NCBI GenBank assembly: GCA_017556805.1
Contig: JAFYMC010000028.1
Location: 62,001-126,000, forward strand
Reading direction: 5' to 3'
DNA length: 64,000 nucleotides
From: Lachnospiraceae bacterium
Lineage (GTDB): Bacteria > Bacillota > Clostridia > Lachnospirales > Lachnospiraceae
Shown: piece after piece, positions 19,465 to 25,611 of the stretch
How the letters are laid out: each line of letters opens with the position of its first letter
Numbering within the stretch: position 1 is the first letter of the stretch
Translations under genes and position numbers: made by a program
The notes under the pieces: model-generated
What the model was told of the DNA's origin: nothing
Seen by the model: the letters and a program-made list of their open reading frames with translations, nothing else
The model's database searches: none

Positions 19465-20217
19465 TTACGCGGTTGTGTCCGTCCGATTCCTTCGATTCCG
19501 AACTCCTTGTAAAATAATCTGCCGGCAACGCTTCGCGTCCTCCGCCTCCATCTGTGGAACCCCTTCTAATCGATATGGGATACCGAGTTCCTTATACTTG
19601 GAAAGCCCCATTACATGGTACGGCAATACCTCTACTGCCCTCACGCACCCAAAGCCTCCGATATATTCTCCCAAACGAAGAAGCTCATCCTCCTCATCCG
19701 TATAACCCGGAACCGCCACCCGGCGAATCCAGACCGGAATCTTCTTTTCCTCTAAGTACTCCAAAAAAGCAAAGGTGGCATCATTGGAATAACCGGTAAG
19801 TTTACGATGTTCCTCGTTATCTGTATGCTTCACATCCAAGAGTACCAAATCCGTAACCGCAGACAATTCCTCGTATTCCTTTAATAAAACTTCGGAAAAC
19901 ATCACTCCGGAGGTATCCAGGCAAGTAGAAATCCCTTCTTTTTTCGCCTTGCGGAACAGATTTGTCACAAACTCCACCTGACACAGAGGTTCTCCGCCGG
20001 AAACCGTAATTCCGCCGTTTTTGTAATAGGACCGATTTCGAAGGAATCTCTCAATCAGTTCCTCCGCATCCGTCAATGTACCTCTTTTTTCCTGCCAGGT
20101 ATCCGGGTTATGACAATAGGCACAACGCATCGGGCACCCTTGAAGGAAAATAACCATGCGTACTCCCGGCCCATCCACGGTACCGAAGCTTTCCACAGAA
20201 TGAACCCATCCTTGCAT
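19465..20217 (-). CDS. pflA: pyruvate formate-lyase activating enzyme (radical SAM)
   Basis: 250-aa radical SAM enzyme that installs the glycyl radical on PFL using S-adenosylmethionine and a [4Fe-4S] cluster. The CxxxCxxC motif is at C28, C32 and C35 (GCPMRCAYCHNP), followed by GGEPL-type TVSGGEPLCQ, LDTSG and DVKH motifs. Length matches PflA. Its start overlaps the stop of the glycyl-radical cistron by one base (TAATG), indicating translational coupling. It is the last gene of the operon and is followed by a strong terminator. Confidence 0.95.
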   Translation of the reverse strand: MQGWVHSVESFGTVDGPGVRMVIFLQGCPMRCAYCHNPDTWQEKRGTLTDAEELIERFLRNRSYYKNGGITVSGGEPLCQVEFVTNLFRKAKKEGISTCLDTSGVMFSEVLLKEYEELSAVTDLVLLDVKHTDNEEHRKLTGYSNDATFAFLEYLEEKKIPVWIRRVAVPGYTDEEDELLRLGEYIGGFGCVRAVEVLPYHVMGLSKYKELGIPYRLEGVPQMEAEDAKRCRQIILQGVRNRRNRTDTTA

Positions 20218-20456
20218 TACATCACCTCATGGAATGTACGGGAAATCACCTCGTCCTGCTGCTCCTTATTTAACTTATTAAAGTTTACCGCATAACCGGA
20301 TACACGTACCGTAAGCTGCGGATACTTCTCCGGATGCTTCTGGGCATCCAGCAAAGTCTCGCGGTTTAACACATTCACGTTTAAGTGATGTCCGCCCTGC
20401 TCTACATAACCGTCAAGTAGCGCTACCAGATTGTCGATTTGATTCAAATCTGCCAT
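20217..20456 (-). CDS. separate glycyl-radical domain of pyruvate formate-lyase (GrcA-like)
   Basis: 79-aa protein corresponding to the C-terminal end of ordinary PFL. It starts [17 protein letters not shown], contains [13 protein letters not shown] and HPEKYPQLT, and carries the radical site RVSGYA with Gly54. The ATG at 20456 has its own AAAGGAG site, 14 bp after the TAG stop of the large PFL gene and in a different frame, so it is a true separate cistron rather than a stop read-through. It resembles the E. coli spare-part protein GrcA, but here the main PFL lacks this domain, so the peptide must supply the radical in trans to a two-subunit enzyme. Confidence 0.9.
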
Positions 20457-20470
20457 CGTTTTGCTCCTTT

Positions 20471-22564
20471 CTATTCTGCTGTGCCGTAATCCGGCTCCGA
20501 CATAGAACCTGCCGGAGTACAACATCCGTCATCAAACTCCAGTGCAAAATCAGAAGAAATCACAACACTCTCCTTACCCAAAGCGCCCGGAATTACCGTA
20601 AATGTATTGGAAATACCGTCCTGTGCATCCCGGAACGGAAGCTTGGATACAGATGCCAGCGAAGCTATCGCACCGTGACTGTCTCTTCCGTGCATCGGAT
20701 TCGCCCCCGGTGCAAACGGCTGTCCCGCCTTTCTTCCGTCCGGCGTGGAACCGGTATTCTTACCGTATACCACATTGGAGGTAATGGTAAGAATGGAAGT
20801 AGTCGGAATACCGCCACGATAGGTGTGGTTACCCTTTACATACTGCATAAAGGTGTGTACCACATCTCTTGCAATCTCATCTACACGGTCGTCATCGTTA
20901 CCGTACTTCGGGAAATCACCCTCTACTTCATAGTCCACCGCAACACCGTCAGCATCACGGATGACCTTTACCTTCGCATATTTAATTGCGGAAAGAGAAT
21001 CTGCCACAACGGAAAGTCCCGCAATACCGGTTGCAAACCAGCGGGTTACTTTCTTATCGTGAAGTGCCATCTGTAACTTCTCATAACAATACTTGTCATG
21101 CATGAAATGAATAATATTTAACGTATTCACATATACACGGGCAAGCCATTTCATCATTTCACTATACTTGTGCATTACCTCATCATAATCCAAATACTCA
21201 GAGGTAATCGGTCGATACTCCGGTGCCACCTGCTTCTTCGTAATCTCGTCTACACCGCCGTTAATGGCATAGAGAAGACACTTTGCCAGGTTTGCTCTTG
21301 CACCGAAGAACTGCATCTCCTTCCCCACACGCATGGAAGATACACAACAAGCAATGGCGTAATCATCCCCGTGGGTCACACGCATCAAATCGTCGTTCTC
21401 GTACTGAACGGAAGAGGATTCGATGGAAACCTTTGCACAGAATCGCTTAAATGCAAGCGGAAGTCTTGTGGACCAAAGAACGGTCATGTTCGGTTCCGGT
21501 GCCGCACCCAGATTCTGCAAGGTATGCAAATAACGGAAGGACATCTTGGTTACAAGCGGTCTGCCGTCGATGCCGATACCGCCGATAGACTCCGTTACCC
21601 AGGTCGGATCTCCGGAGAACAATGCGTTATATTCCGGGGTTCTTGCAAACTTAACCAAACGGAGCTTCATAATAAAGTGATCTACAAACTCCTGAATCTC
21701 TTCTTCCGTAAATCTACCCTCTGCAAGGTCACGCTGTGCGTAAATATCCAGGAAGGTAGAGGTACGTCCGAGAGACATTGCCGCACCGTTCTGCTCCTTT
21801 ACCGCTGCCAGATAACCGAAATACAGCCACTGGATAGCCTCCTGAACATTGCCTGCCGGACGACCGATATCAAAACCGTAAATCTCGCCCAACTTCTTCA
21901 AATCCTTTAACGCACGAATCTGCTCGGAAAGCTCCTCACGGTCGCGGATAACATCAGAATACATAATGGTACGGGTAGAATTCTTCTGATCTTCCTTATC
22001 TTCAATCAAACGGTCCACACCATACAATGCCACACGTCTGTAGTCACCGATAATACGTCCTCTGCCGTAAGCGTCCGGTAGTCCTGTAATAATGTGACTG
22101 GAACGACATGCACGCATTTCCGGCGTATAAGCGTCAAATACACCCGCATTGTGGGTCTTGCGGTGTACGGTGAAAAACTCTTCAATCTGCGGGTCCAACT
22201 CATATCCGTTGTCGCTGCAAGCCTTTGCCGCCATACGAATACCTCCGTACGGTTGTAAGGAACGCTTAAACGGCTTGTCCGTCTGGAATCCCACAATCTT
22301 TTCTGTATTTTTATCTAAATAGCCCGGGCCGTGAGAGGTAATGGTAGAAATCACACTGGTATCCATATCCAGAACACCGCCTGCCTCACGCTCCTGCTTG
22401 GACAGCTCCAACACCTGTTCCCACAGAGCTTTGGTCGCCTCTGTCGGTCCTGCCAGGAAGGATTCGTCTCCTTCATAAGAGAAATAATTCTTCTGAATGA
22501 AGTCTCTTGTGTTGATTTCTCTCTCCCAAACACCCGATTTAAATCCTCTCCATTCTTCACGCAT
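20471..22564 (-). CDS. pflB: pyruvate formate-lyase, catalytic part lacking the glycyl-radical domain
   Basis: 697-aa protein homologous to formate acetyltransferase (pyruvate + CoA to acetyl-CoA + formate), anaerobic and cytosolic. The catalytic cysteine pair is at C406-C407 ([22 protein letters not shown]). Substrate-binding blocks [11 protein letters not shown] and [14 protein letters not shown] are intact. The usual C-terminal RVSGYA region is missing: the protein ends after a short acidic Cys-containing tail ([20 protein letters not shown]) and the radical domain is encoded by the next cistron. Together the two are 776 aa, close to full-length PFL. A promoter and an inverted repeat precede the gene. 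Confidence 0.95.
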
Positions 22565-22594: not shown

Positions 22595-22614
22595 GCGTTA
22601 ACACTTCTTAACGC
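22595..22614. promoter_or_regulatory. operator candidate in the pfl leader
   Basis: GCGTTAA-N6-TTAACGC, a 7-bp inverted repeat covering about +1 to +20 of the pfl transcript. The TTAA...TTAA core recalls redox-sensing Rex sites, but the spacing differs from the usual four bases, so the regulator is uncertain. Confidence 0.45.
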
Positions 22615-22697: not shown

Positions 22698-23249
22698 TTA
22701 TTCCTTTTTCCCCAATAAATCCCGCCGGATATAAGAAAACGTAACATCCTCGCCTTCCTCCGCCAACATATAGAGCAATTTTTCCAGCAATTCCACCGTC
22801 TCCGGGTGCATCAGATACTTCCCCTCGCCCCGTTTGTAATAGGCAAGCGGATCCTTCTGCGTATACTTCTCCTTGTTATATACCTTGCTGGCTGCCACCC
22901 GGTCGCAAAACATTTCAAGCACATACTCCTGTGGCATTTTCATCCCCGCAAGCTCGCATTCCGCATCCTTTTTATAATCAATCCAGTATTCGTAATGATG
23001 CTTGTTTCTTCCTTTGTGATGCATCCAGGCCGATGCAACCCCTTCCACCTCACGCTGTACATTATTCGGACTTACATCTCCCCTGAAGTATTTCACCCCC
23101 ACGAAAAACTCCGACGGAGAATATTTCGATAAATCATGAAGCAGTCCCCTTTTATACAAACCCAACCGGAAGCAATGCTTCATTACCATACGCTTATGCT
23201 TATTGATGGTATGAAGATGTCCGAAAAAACGTTGCATTACGTTTGCCAT
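22698..23249 (-). CDS. DUF5662 family protein
   Basis: 183-aa cytosolic protein with conserved histidine motifs: GLLHDLSKYSPSEF (about residues 36-49), which looks like the HD pair of a metal site, and WMHHKGRNKHHYEYW (about residues 75-89). This pattern matches the DUF5662 family of Clostridia, which has no assigned function; an HD-type metal-dependent hydrolase is a guess from the motifs. The ATG has AGAGGA upstream. It is monocistronic, upstream of the pfl promoter on the same strand. Confidence 0.75.
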   Translation of the reverse strand: MANVMQRFFGHLHTINKHKRMVMKHCFRLGLYKRGLLHDLSKYSPSEFFVGVKYFRGDVSPNNVQREVEGVASAWMHHKGRNKHHYEYWIDYKKDAECELAGMKMPQEYVLEMFCDRVAASKVYNKEKYTQKDPLAYYKRGEGKYLMHPETVELLEKLLYMLAEEGEDVTFSYIRRDLLGKKE

Positions 23250-23448
23250 GGTAGTGTCCTCTCATTCTCGAAAATAATACTCTCTATGACACAGTTTATT
23301 ATTTTCTGCATGTAATGTCAATCACATAAAAAAAGCTGGCAAAATAAAAAAAGTATGATATACTATCTCCAATAGCACTCTGCCCTTTGCACAAAACAAT
23401 CCGTACAGGCAGATGTCCCTTTCCGATCTTACATCCAAGGAGGATATT

Positions 23449-23634
23449 ATGAGTACACAATACAGCTGCGACACCTGCAGCAATTTCCGTTACGATGATG
23501 ATTATGAAGAATATGTCTGCATGGCAGGCGGCATGGACGAGGATGACTACTCCCGCCTTATGTCCGGCACCGTAAGAGAGTGCCCGTATTATCATTTTGA
23601 TAACGAATATGACATTGTGAAGAAGCAGATGTAA
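23449..23634 (+). CDS. small cysteine-rich DUF6472-type protein
   Basis: 61-aa protein starting MSTQYSCDTCSNFRYDDDYEEYVC. Four cysteines (CDTC, YVC, ECPYY) could bind a metal ion. The ending, CPYYHFDNEYDIVKKQM, is characteristic of a small conserved Clostridia family (DUF6472), function unknown. I choose the ATG at 23449 because AAGGAGG lies just upstream; the longer reading from 23413 has no such site. It is highly acidic. Confidence 0.75.
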   Translation: MSTQYSCDTCSNFRYDDDYEEYVCMAGGMDEDDYSRLMSGTVRECPYYHFDNEYDIVKKQM

Positions 23635-24287: not shown

Positions 24288-25400
24288 CTAATTCAACCCG
24301 TTTTTCTCCCGATACTCCGCCAACAATAAATCCACGACTCTGCCGTAGCTTTTCACGCCGTCCTCCTGCTCATTTGCCTTAAGATACACGTCGTTTACCT
24401 TATCTGCCGTCTCACTGATTACCGTATCATGATATTGGTCCCAATAGGCACTGTTATCCCGAAAATCTCTTCCCATTCCTTCGTGGTACGTTGCCCAAAG
24501 TTCGCCGTAAAGCTCCATATCCTGCCCCGCAAGAGCATTGCCTGCATAGATTAAGGCAAGCATGGTCCCACTGTACCGCACCAACGGGTCCTCGGAGGAC
24601 ATACAGGCCAGATACGCCAGAAAATTCGCTTCGTCCTCCCGCATAAATCCGTGAAGGTGTGCCAGCTCGTGAGCCATGGTATAAGCTCTGGAATAATCCG
24701 GAATATCCACATTTACATTGGCCTCCATGGTCCAGCAGGTAAACACCCCCGTAATCTCCATGGCAGAAAAAAACTTGGAGCTTGTGATACATTTCGGTGC
24801 CGGATACAGTCCTTCCAGTACCGTCATCTCTTCGGATAATGTCTCATACGCCTCCTGTACCTGTTTGCCCAGGTCCCGGTTAGAAACAGGCAAACGCAGT
24901 ACGCCGTCCGAATCCTCATATTCCGCAAGTCCCGCCCGGAGCTCCGCCGCCTGCTCCGCCAGCTCCATGCAAAGTCCGTACAGCTCCTCCTTGGAGGAAT
25001 CCCGCACCGTAATCCCGCGATACTCCGCAACAGATACCCGGTGATAATTCACACCGCAGCCGATGACATAAACAAACAAAATTACCGCGACCACACAAGC
25101 CACGTTAATGATTCCGAACAGACACCGGGTAAACCGGTTTTCCTTGTCCTTCACCATATGTACGATAAACCGAATCAAAAGTACAAGGCAAACCATCGGT
25201 CCCACAATTACGATAAGCTCCGCCAAGGAAAAAGGAATCCACCCCGTTACTGCAGACACCACCACGGAATGTACCTTGTAAATACGTTTTGCGAACACCT
25301 CTTCCGCAATAAATACACTCCTTTTTGCCCCGGCGGAAATCAAGAATGTCAACGGAAACAACAGCAAGAGTAAAAGTCTCTTTTTCTTTAAAACCTTCAC
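24288..25400 (-). CDS. DUF3810 membrane protein with HExxH motif
   Basis: 370-aa protein. The first 110 residues hold three membrane segments; the rest is an extracytoplasmic or cytoplasmic domain with the zinc-peptidase-like motif TMAHELAHLHGFMREDEANFLAY, which gives two His and a downstream Glu as metal ligands. This is the DUF3810 family, suspected metalloproteases with no proven substrate. The start is a GTG at 25400, with AGGAGG 7 nt upstream; an upstream in-frame TTG at 25430 lies before that ribosome site and is not used in my reading. Confidence 0.8.
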   Translation of the reverse strand: MKVLKKKRLLLLLLFPLTFLISAGAKRSVFIAEEVFAKRIYKVHSVVVSAVTGWIPFSLAELIVIVGPMVCLVLLIRFIVHMVKDKENRFTRCLFGIINVACVVAVILFVYVIGCGVNYHRVSVAEYRGITVRDSSKEELYGLCMELAEQAAELRAGLAEYEDSDGVLRLPVSNRDLGKQVQEAYETLSEEMTVLEGLYPAPKCITSSKFFSAMEITGVFTCWTMEANVNVDIPDYSRAYTMAHELAHLHGFMREDEANFLAYLACMSSEDPLVRYSGTMLALIYAGNALAGQDMELYGELWATYHEGMGRDFRDNSAYWDQYHDTVISETADKVNDVYLKANEQEDGVKSYGRVVDLLLAEYREKNGLN

Positions 25401-25611
25401 AACCCATCCTCCTTCTCTTTTGCCCACCAACGCCCGAATACGTCCGTATCGAGCCTTACAATCAGTATACTATACCGCTGTGTCCATTTGGTGTCAGAAA
25501 TCAAGTTTCCTACCTTTTCTTTTTCGATGGTTTGTGCTAAGATAGTCCCATAGGACGGTTTGCAACTATGCTTTCCGCCCGACAACCATTCTTTCCGAAA
25601 GGAGTTTTTCC

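Follow-up and report, generated by a model that had tools for sequence, protein, structure and literature searches.

The 64,000-nucleotide stretch of Lachnospiraceae bacterium DNA analyzed here (the window; assembly GCA_017556805.1, contig JAFYMC010000028.1, positions 62,001 to 126,000) contains an operon in which the pyruvate formate-lyase (PFL) of this gut-type bacterium is divided between two genes. The large gene, pflB', encodes a protein with the catalytic cysteine pair of PFL; the small gene behind it, of the grcA3 type, encodes the glycyl radical loop; and the gene for the activating enzyme, pflA, follows (Table 1). We consider it very likely that this locus encodes an obligate two-subunit PFL. 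This central fermentation enzyme, normally a single protein, is a main route from pyruvate to acetyl coenzyme A in many anaerobes, and oxygen destroys it at the radical glycine.

TABLE 1 Features of the split pfl locus, in window coordinates (aa, amino acids; SAM, S-adenosylmethionine)
Feature	Position	Strand	Description
pflB'	20471..22564	(-)	Catalytic subunit, 697 aa, without glycyl radical loop
Cys406-Cys407 codons	21344..21349	(-)	Catalytic Cys pair, equivalent to E. coli C418/C419
pflB' C-terminal tail past ALGK	20474..20572	(-)	33 aa, cis form of the Cys module
AAAGGAG	20464..20470	(-)	Ribosome binding site of the small cistron, read directly from the sequence
grcA3-type radical subunit gene	20217..20456	(-)	79 aa
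RVSGYA radical loop	20289..20306	(-)	Gly54 codon at 20295-20297
pflA	19465..20217	(-)	Radical SAM PFL-activating enzyme, 250 aa

A preliminary description of this DNA had reported that pflB' retains its cysteine pair and ends before RVSGYA, that the radical site lies 14 bp downstream in another frame in a 79-aa cistron with its own AAAGGAG, and that this cistron overlaps pflA by one base. Reading the sequence and aligning the proteins bore out every detail that was checked. The 14-bp spacer, with its flanking stop and start codons, is TAG-AAAGGAGCAAAACG-ATG, across which the relative frame changes, and the shared base lies in the TAA of grcA3 and the ATG of pflA. The list of open reading frames (ORFs) offered an alternative 102-aa version of the small protein, starting inside pflB'; the ATG behind AAAGGAG gives the length of 79 aa. 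Cys406 and Cys407 are invariant across 32 aligned catalytic subunits, and R51-V52-S53-G54-Y55-A56 is invariant across 22 aligned radical subunits. The pflB' product aligns with residues 10 to 686 of E. coli PFL and the 79-aa protein with residues 683 to 757; in this alignment the split point would correspond to about residue 682.

Family models were divided in the same way. The pflB' product covers positions 4 to 647 of the 647 in PF02901 (730.4 bits) and only positions 1 to 49 of the 106 in PF01228; the 79-aa protein covers positions 50 to 106 of the latter. With TIGR01255, pflB' matches positions 2 to 665 of 744 (1097.9 bits, above the curated cutoff of 994.2), and the 79-aa protein matches positions 665 to 744. 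Because these complementary halves break at the same model position, they point to a PFL in two parts, with the radical loop, which an ordinary PFL has in the same chain, in the next cistron. The 79-aa protein passes the cutoff of NCBIfam model NF038360 (GrcA3; 162.2 bits versus 158) and falls below that of TIGR04365 (GrcA/YfiD; 97.8 versus 170 bits), and the pflA product passes TIGR02493 (295 bits versus 231.75).

The preliminary description had suggested looking for the same gene order in related genomes. We compared 180 loci: 80 listed family matches, the 80 nearest named loci, and 20 loci from other families. The 80 family matches were listed by score and are therefore biased toward GrcA3; among them are the locus of the window itself (L051) and 15 fused rows. 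In all, 142 loci were split, 30 were fused, 5 were lone grcA3 genes, and 3, which sit at or near contig ends, had no radical part. The split loci represent 137 distinct pflB' proteins, as five genomes were entered twice (L057/L118, L066/L121, L076/L174, L087/L129, and L102/L124), and one locus without the anchor motif (L114) was left out of all counts based on 141 loci. Every split catalytic protein has the CC motif (142/142) and none has R[VI]SGYA, which 141 of the 142 separate radical proteins contain; the remaining one, L132, is truncated ahead of the motif. Where pflA lies in the stretch, the order is pflB'-grcA3-pflA in 120 of 123 split loci and different in 3; in the remaining 19 of the 142 pflA is outside the stretch. 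The only same-genus genome among the matches listed (G115, locus L052) has the same layout as the window, including the 14-bp spacing.

GrcA3 scored above the cutoff in 101 of 299 family genomes, in all but three of which (G252, G096, and G074) the frame was shorter than 200 aa as the listing was read by eye. Short GrcA3 frames, again read by eye, were found in 23 of 391 genomes of a class-wide sample at an E value of 1e-40 or better, and in only 2 of 398 genomes of a phylum-wide sample at 1e-36. Named hosts of split loci include Blautia, Lacrimispora, Catonella, Claveliimonas, Ruminococcus bicirculans, Massilimicrobiota, and Beduini, and the arrangement is also found in Collinsella (Actinomycetota) and in spirochaete assemblies. 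Because so many related bacteria have it, the split is a real, long-lived design and not a sequencing error.

The split PFL is probably the working PFL of its host. A TIGR01255 search of the window's genome, which is 86% complete, found no PFL beyond the split one, and so no complete PflB elsewhere of the kind that accompanies GrcA/YfiD. The genome has a second PF01228 locus, a candidate for a second PFL, which was rejected because we read its product, from the sequence, as a class III ribonucleotide reductase-like protein (our label, NrdD). At an E value of 1e-100 or better, 40 of 46 other split genomes had the split PFL only, 5 also had an unsplit PFL (G284, G296, G265, G085, and G119), and in 1 it was broken over contigs. 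These searches support the claim that no part other than the small peptide bears the radical, and the discovery of a second, full-length PFL, which would have counted against it, did not come about, with the reservation that the genome is incomplete.

Both genes are under strong purifying selection. The median ratios of nonsynonymous to synonymous substitution rates (dN/dS) for pflB' and grcA3 were 0.045 (40 pairs) and 0.047 (39 pairs) in one of the two types of split loci described below (the X type) and 0.064 (26 of 30 pairs) and 0.047 (15 of 30 pairs) in the other (the tail type). Between the window and G115, dN was 0.033 and dS 1.02 for pflB', and dN was 0.047 and dS 1.35 for grcA3.

Two simpler explanations of the locus have to be weighed against these results. 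The two pieces adjoin and together span one PFL, as they would if a programmed frameshift, or an error of sequencing or assembly, concealed a single protein; a read-level error had been named in advance as what would overturn the preliminary description. We give this explanation practically no chance. In 141 split loci, relative frames 0, 1, and 2 occur 43, 47, and 51 times, the spacing ranges from -17 to 1,038 bp, a Shine-Dalgarno-like motif precedes grcA3 in 137, and a further ORF lies between the pieces in 72; these differences, with the variation in gene order and the identical layout in G115, refute it. It is also very improbable that the small protein is a spare part for another, full-length PFL, like GrcA in E. 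coli, and that pflB' is a dead remnant. The NCBI family name, "autonomous glycyl radical cofactor GrcA3," and the five split genomes that also have an unsplit PFL speak for such a role. The 40 relatives and the window's genome in which no other PFL was found speak against it, as do the selection on pflB' and its unbroken record of CC motifs.

The split loci have a further element, which apparently has not been described and is the most surprising part of these results. In 140 of 141 split loci pflB' continues for at least 10 residues past ALGK (in L203 it continues for only two); the unsplit PFLs listed run on at this position into the radical domain, and the tail was not seen there. In 61 loci the tail has two or more cysteines, with grcA3 close behind (median gap, 35 bp); 54 of the 61 tails match C-x(0-6)-C-x(1-2)-P. 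The window is of this tail type, with the motif GCCTP. The other 80 loci have a short tail and a long gap (median, 296 bp), and in 72 of them the gap encodes a third protein, which we call X. The script found 70 X proteins, two shortened ones (L055 and L106) were counted as trans by hand, and apparent X proteins in L091 and L114 proved to be pflA ORFs and were removed. As called, X is 50 to 89 aa long (median, 69 aa), the 50-aa calls in L148 and L152 probably being too short. A terminator or RNA switch had been a candidate for the content of the long gaps and was rejected: only 10 of 71 have a terminator-like hairpin, and the gaps hold an ORF.

The tail and X never occur together. Of 141 split loci, 61 have the tail only, 72 have X only, 8 have neither, and none has both, so that the Cys module accompanies the split state in 133; with the doubled genomes counted once, the numbers are 56, 72, 8, and 0. 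On the tree, about 7 of 11 independent pairs had X changing opposite to the tail, and none had both changing in the same direction (sign test, median P of 0.016). The start of X resembles GrcA3 (IDDLVxMLDxxMxxGxGHxNVxV), and a profile-profile comparison with GrcA3 gave a probability of 96.4 and an E value of 1.4e-9 over 31 columns. At its end X has a Cys module of the kind seen in the tail, ACxVPTLxxGLD, and the radical motif was found in none of 70 X proteins. X too is under purifying selection (dN/dS, 0.069; 15 pairs).

We searched 34 whole genomes with an X profile. All 17 X-type genomes had a single full-length match, at the pfl operon, and also showed cross-matches to GrcA3 or to unsplit PFL. 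In the 11 tail-type genomes the only match was a cross-match to the beginning of GrcA3. Of 5 genomes with the re-fused PFLs described below, 4 gave a cross-match to the fused protein only and 1 (G108) gave nothing; and G045, which has no GrcA3 match, gave nothing. A partial X-like match lies away from the pfl operon at G256:C115:2385-2504. Four example X proteins matched no significant Pfam family (one chance-level match, E of 0.077) and had no NCBIfam family of their own, with weak partial GrcA3 matches in three of the four (E of 0.0003 to 0.08), and a plasmid search with one X protein at an E value of 0.001 gave no match. AlphaFold models of X (30 sequences; predicted local distance difference test [pLDDT] score of 63, one helix) and of pflB' (32 sequences) were too poor for placing X or the tail.

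Most likely, the tail or X serves the open barrel of pflB' as a docking or capping element, in place of the stump of residues 696 to 733 in E. coli, which the natural split enzyme lacks; X resembles the helix and strand of the part that pflB' is missing. It is conceivable, though we hold it only tentatively, that the split PFL is a two- or three-part enzyme that needs a decoy of the radical domain. The decoy, which would mimic the helix and last strand and have a Cys pair and no radical loop, would come in trans as X or, in reduced form, as the tail of the large subunit, as in the window. It would shield the barrel, open as it is, and the cysteines there until displaced by a fresh radical subunit, and in some relatives lone, stress-controlled grcA3 genes would supply replacements. 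Displacement of such a decoy would make the radical part exchangeable.

We examined the history of the split with three trees: a FastTree of 165 rows (170 before identical cores were removed), an IQ-TREE of 92 rows, and a careful tree of 52 rows. L046, L114, and L202 were left out, as were L185 and L186, which are cut at contig ends; the careful tree also excludes L037 and the long-branched L203 and has 8 of the 17 unsplit rows. Both the FastTree and the IQ-TREE require three changes between split and fused states. Probably, although the tests are mixed, one split was followed by two re-fusions, one in an 11-row clade (clade B) and one in L037; this is the history that best fits the trees. The re-fusions, if right, would be natural evidence that both proteins act as one enzyme. 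L203 (G486) is a deep-branching split PFL that ends in SLGKDD, lacks the Cys module, and has pflA on the other side of pflB'.

Rival accounts of the fused proteins and of the Cys module carry more weight than those of the split itself. The fused PFLs nested among split ones may never have been split, if independent splits occurred at the same site, or recombination with an unsplit gene may have restored their end; we regard this as unlikely, if less so than the explanations dismissed above. The linkers of clade B, read by eye, are of the classic length of 6 to 7 residues, and approximately unbiased (AU) tests on the quick 92-row tree do not reject all fused rows as one clade (P of 0.0502, or 0.11 without L037) or the placement of L037 with the unsplit rows (P of 0.216). 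The careful 52-row tree argues the other way: none of its 200 bootstrap trees (0%) groups the split rows as one clade, and the AU test gives a P value of 0.012 against clade B joining the unsplit rows. In clade B (11 of 11) and in L037 the radical domain carries the GrcA3-type Gln, which 140 of 140 split proteins have and which is Met in 16 of the 17 unsplit proteins. Of the 16 diagnostic core columns, 14 are split-type, and L037 retains the Cys-rich tail inside its fused protein. One split followed by re-fusion is our preferred reading of the history.

A docking or capping role for the Cys module has a serious competitor, although we think it the less likely of the two: by analogy with benzylsuccinate synthase, the module may act through a metal or redox chemistry, as an accessory element regulating the radical or quenching it. 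The small subunits of that enzyme have [4Fe-4S] clusters, and one of them promotes formation of the thiyl radical (PMC12590467). Conserved cysteines would suit such a role; an alignment of 30 X proteins has one invariant Cys and another that is at least 90% conserved, and 61 tails have two or more. Their number fits less well, since 31 of 70 X proteins have only two cysteines and 38 only three, fewer than a four-Cys cluster within a single chain would take (1 has four). The window's tail, considered as a [4Fe-4S] accessory subunit, has only two, and the model of X is of low confidence.

Some relatives have a grcA3 gene outside the operon. We collected 20 such lone genes from relatives' genomes with two listed matches, leaving out L246, whose operon is cut by the contig start; in all 20 genomes the second match is a split operon. 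The palindrome TAGTAATNATTACTA occurs, within two mismatches, in the 200 bp upstream of 11 of the 20 (shuffled mean, 0.15; maximum, 2), compared with 1 of 141 pflB' genes and 1 of 142 operon grcA3 genes. The box was first read from three of these loci, and when they are excluded the count is 8 of 17. Its 7-1-7 form is that of Fur-family operators. A second palindrome, GTAACNNNNGTTAC, lies upstream of four further lone genes (L226, L228, L229, and L233) compared with 1 of 141 operons, and neither box is upstream of the remaining 5 of the 20. The exact TAGTAATNATTACTA box is nearly unique to grcA3 in three genomes. We had considered it a PerR box and softened this to the Fur-family type because so unique a box is unlike a large regulon.

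The lone genes and their putative Fur-type operators fit stress-controlled spare subunits, which is not proof of them, and make the swapping of radical subunits more plausible. The window's genome has one grcA3 match only, so exchange there would rest on new synthesis from the operon. The preliminary description had interpreted the locus as a built-in two-subunit PFL that allows oxygen-damaged radical subunits to be swapped out; our results support the two-subunit enzyme, and that support does not extend to the swapping. In a phage collection, two short fecal records (MT838692.1 and MT838895.1) contain GrcA3-like sequences 84% and 76% identical to the window protein, which may be bacterial carryover.

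The large subunit supplies the barrel and Cys406-Cys407 and ends short of the helix and the last barrel strand of classic PFL; these two elements come from the 79-aa subunit, together with the glycyl radical loop and the C-terminal helix. For complex formation, activation, and exchange we infer the following course. The small subunit would dock its own strand into the open barrel of pflB', with the Cys tail (or X) docking or capping the barrel where E. coli has its stump. PflA from the same operon would install the radical on Gly54, and the radical loop would return to drive the Cys pair as in ordinary PFL. If oxygen cut the chain at Gly54, only the cheap small subunit would have to be replaced, by fresh synthesis.

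Work with E. coli proteins bears on this mechanism from both sides. According to PMC8683613, PFL truncated to residues 1 to 695 forms an activatable and active two-piece enzyme with YfiD or its C-terminal half; when the stump of residues 696 to 733 is present, YfiD docks and is activated far better, and damaged PFL needs the stump for efficient rescue. Several points count against an obligate two-subunit enzyme. In the same source the equivalent two-piece pair is activated poorly: tPFL:YfiD 32-fold less than cPFL:YfiD, and tPFL:truncYfiD 5.4-fold better than tPFL:YfiD. The AlphaFold model of pflB' is mediocre (pLDDT of 70) and uninformative on the tail (below 50 at residues 649 to 697), and the incompleteness of the window's genome leaves room for an unsplit PFL to have been missed. 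Given how poorly the E. coli two-piece pair is activated, the natural pair must possess something that is absent from E. coli. The natural split lies near the artificial cut, and the Cys module may be what the artificial pair was missing.

Around the operon, a perfect inverted repeat directly upstream of pflB' (GCGTTAA-GAAGTG-TTAACGC, 22595-22614) is a possible operator. Next after pflA, on the same strand, is an IMP cyclohydrolase-like gene (PF07826; 18557-19270, minus strand); purine synthesis consumes one-carbon units, which formate can feed. On the other side are genes of unknown function with the domains DUF5662 (22698-23249, minus strand), DUF6472 (23413-23634, plus strand), and DUF3810 (24288-25430, minus strand). 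At gathering scores Rfam found only a tRNA in the window, and around the operon there was no excess of promoter-like sites (6 versus a shuffled mean of 5.6) or terminator-like sites (4 versus 3.3). In three relatives (L075, L096, and L110) the pflB' match is broken in two near query residues 529 to 537, which suggests an insertion in some Lachnospiraceae.

The preliminary description, made from one sequence, had no way of showing that the arrangement is common, that the small protein already has the name GrcA3 in NCBI annotation, or that the Cys module is a separate protein in other species. The pairing of pflB with GrcA3 is already recorded in annotation, as an autonomous cofactor: PGAP annotates the same pair as pflB and grcA3 in a Collinsella record. 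A literature search, whose coverage did not extend to most subscription journals, found no description of GrcA3 or of a split or two-subunit PFL. The best solved relatives of pflB' are PDB entries 38la and 38lb, both listed as "Formate acetyltransferase" (1,159 and 1,167 bits versus 979 for E. coli). They look like split-type catalytic subunits because the radical subunit as query matched neither at an E value of 0.001 and because the 38la chain ends at SLGKED; L203 ends alike. Neither is among the best 50 rows from a structure library ending April 2026, so they are probably newer, and the split PFL is probably under study by others. A separate, cheap radical subunit makes it testable whether subunit exchange gives resilience to oxygen, and a naturally untethered radical domain makes it testable how such a domain docks and is activated.

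Classic PflB of E. coli (1h16 and 2pfl) shares with the window's PFL the catalytic domain, the Cys pair, the radical loop, and the activating enzyme, and a structure match gave 64% identity with pflB' over 655 columns. The E. coli protein is one chain, whereas the window's PFL is two cistrons, cut near residue 682 of that chain, and its large part has an additional tail. GrcA/YfiD (6owr; also T4 Y06I, named in a reference list) is likewise small, with the last strand, the radical loop, and the C-terminal helix. It serves alongside a complete PflB as its spare part, and its leader, 60 residues long, is disordered (PMC8683613). In contrast, the small protein of the window is the only radical carrier found and is located in the pfl operon, and the separate radical proteins have only 5 to 12 residues before NLVxLLDGY. 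By score the family GrcA3 (NF038360) includes the window protein; its name says autonomous, whereas the evidence points to an obligate subunit. Benzylsuccinate synthase and other glycyl radical enzymes likewise have small Cys-containing partners beside the radical enzyme, but in enzymes of the benzylsuccinate synthase type the radical domain remains in the large chain. The partners in benzylsuccinate synthase carry [4Fe-4S] clusters (PMC12590467).

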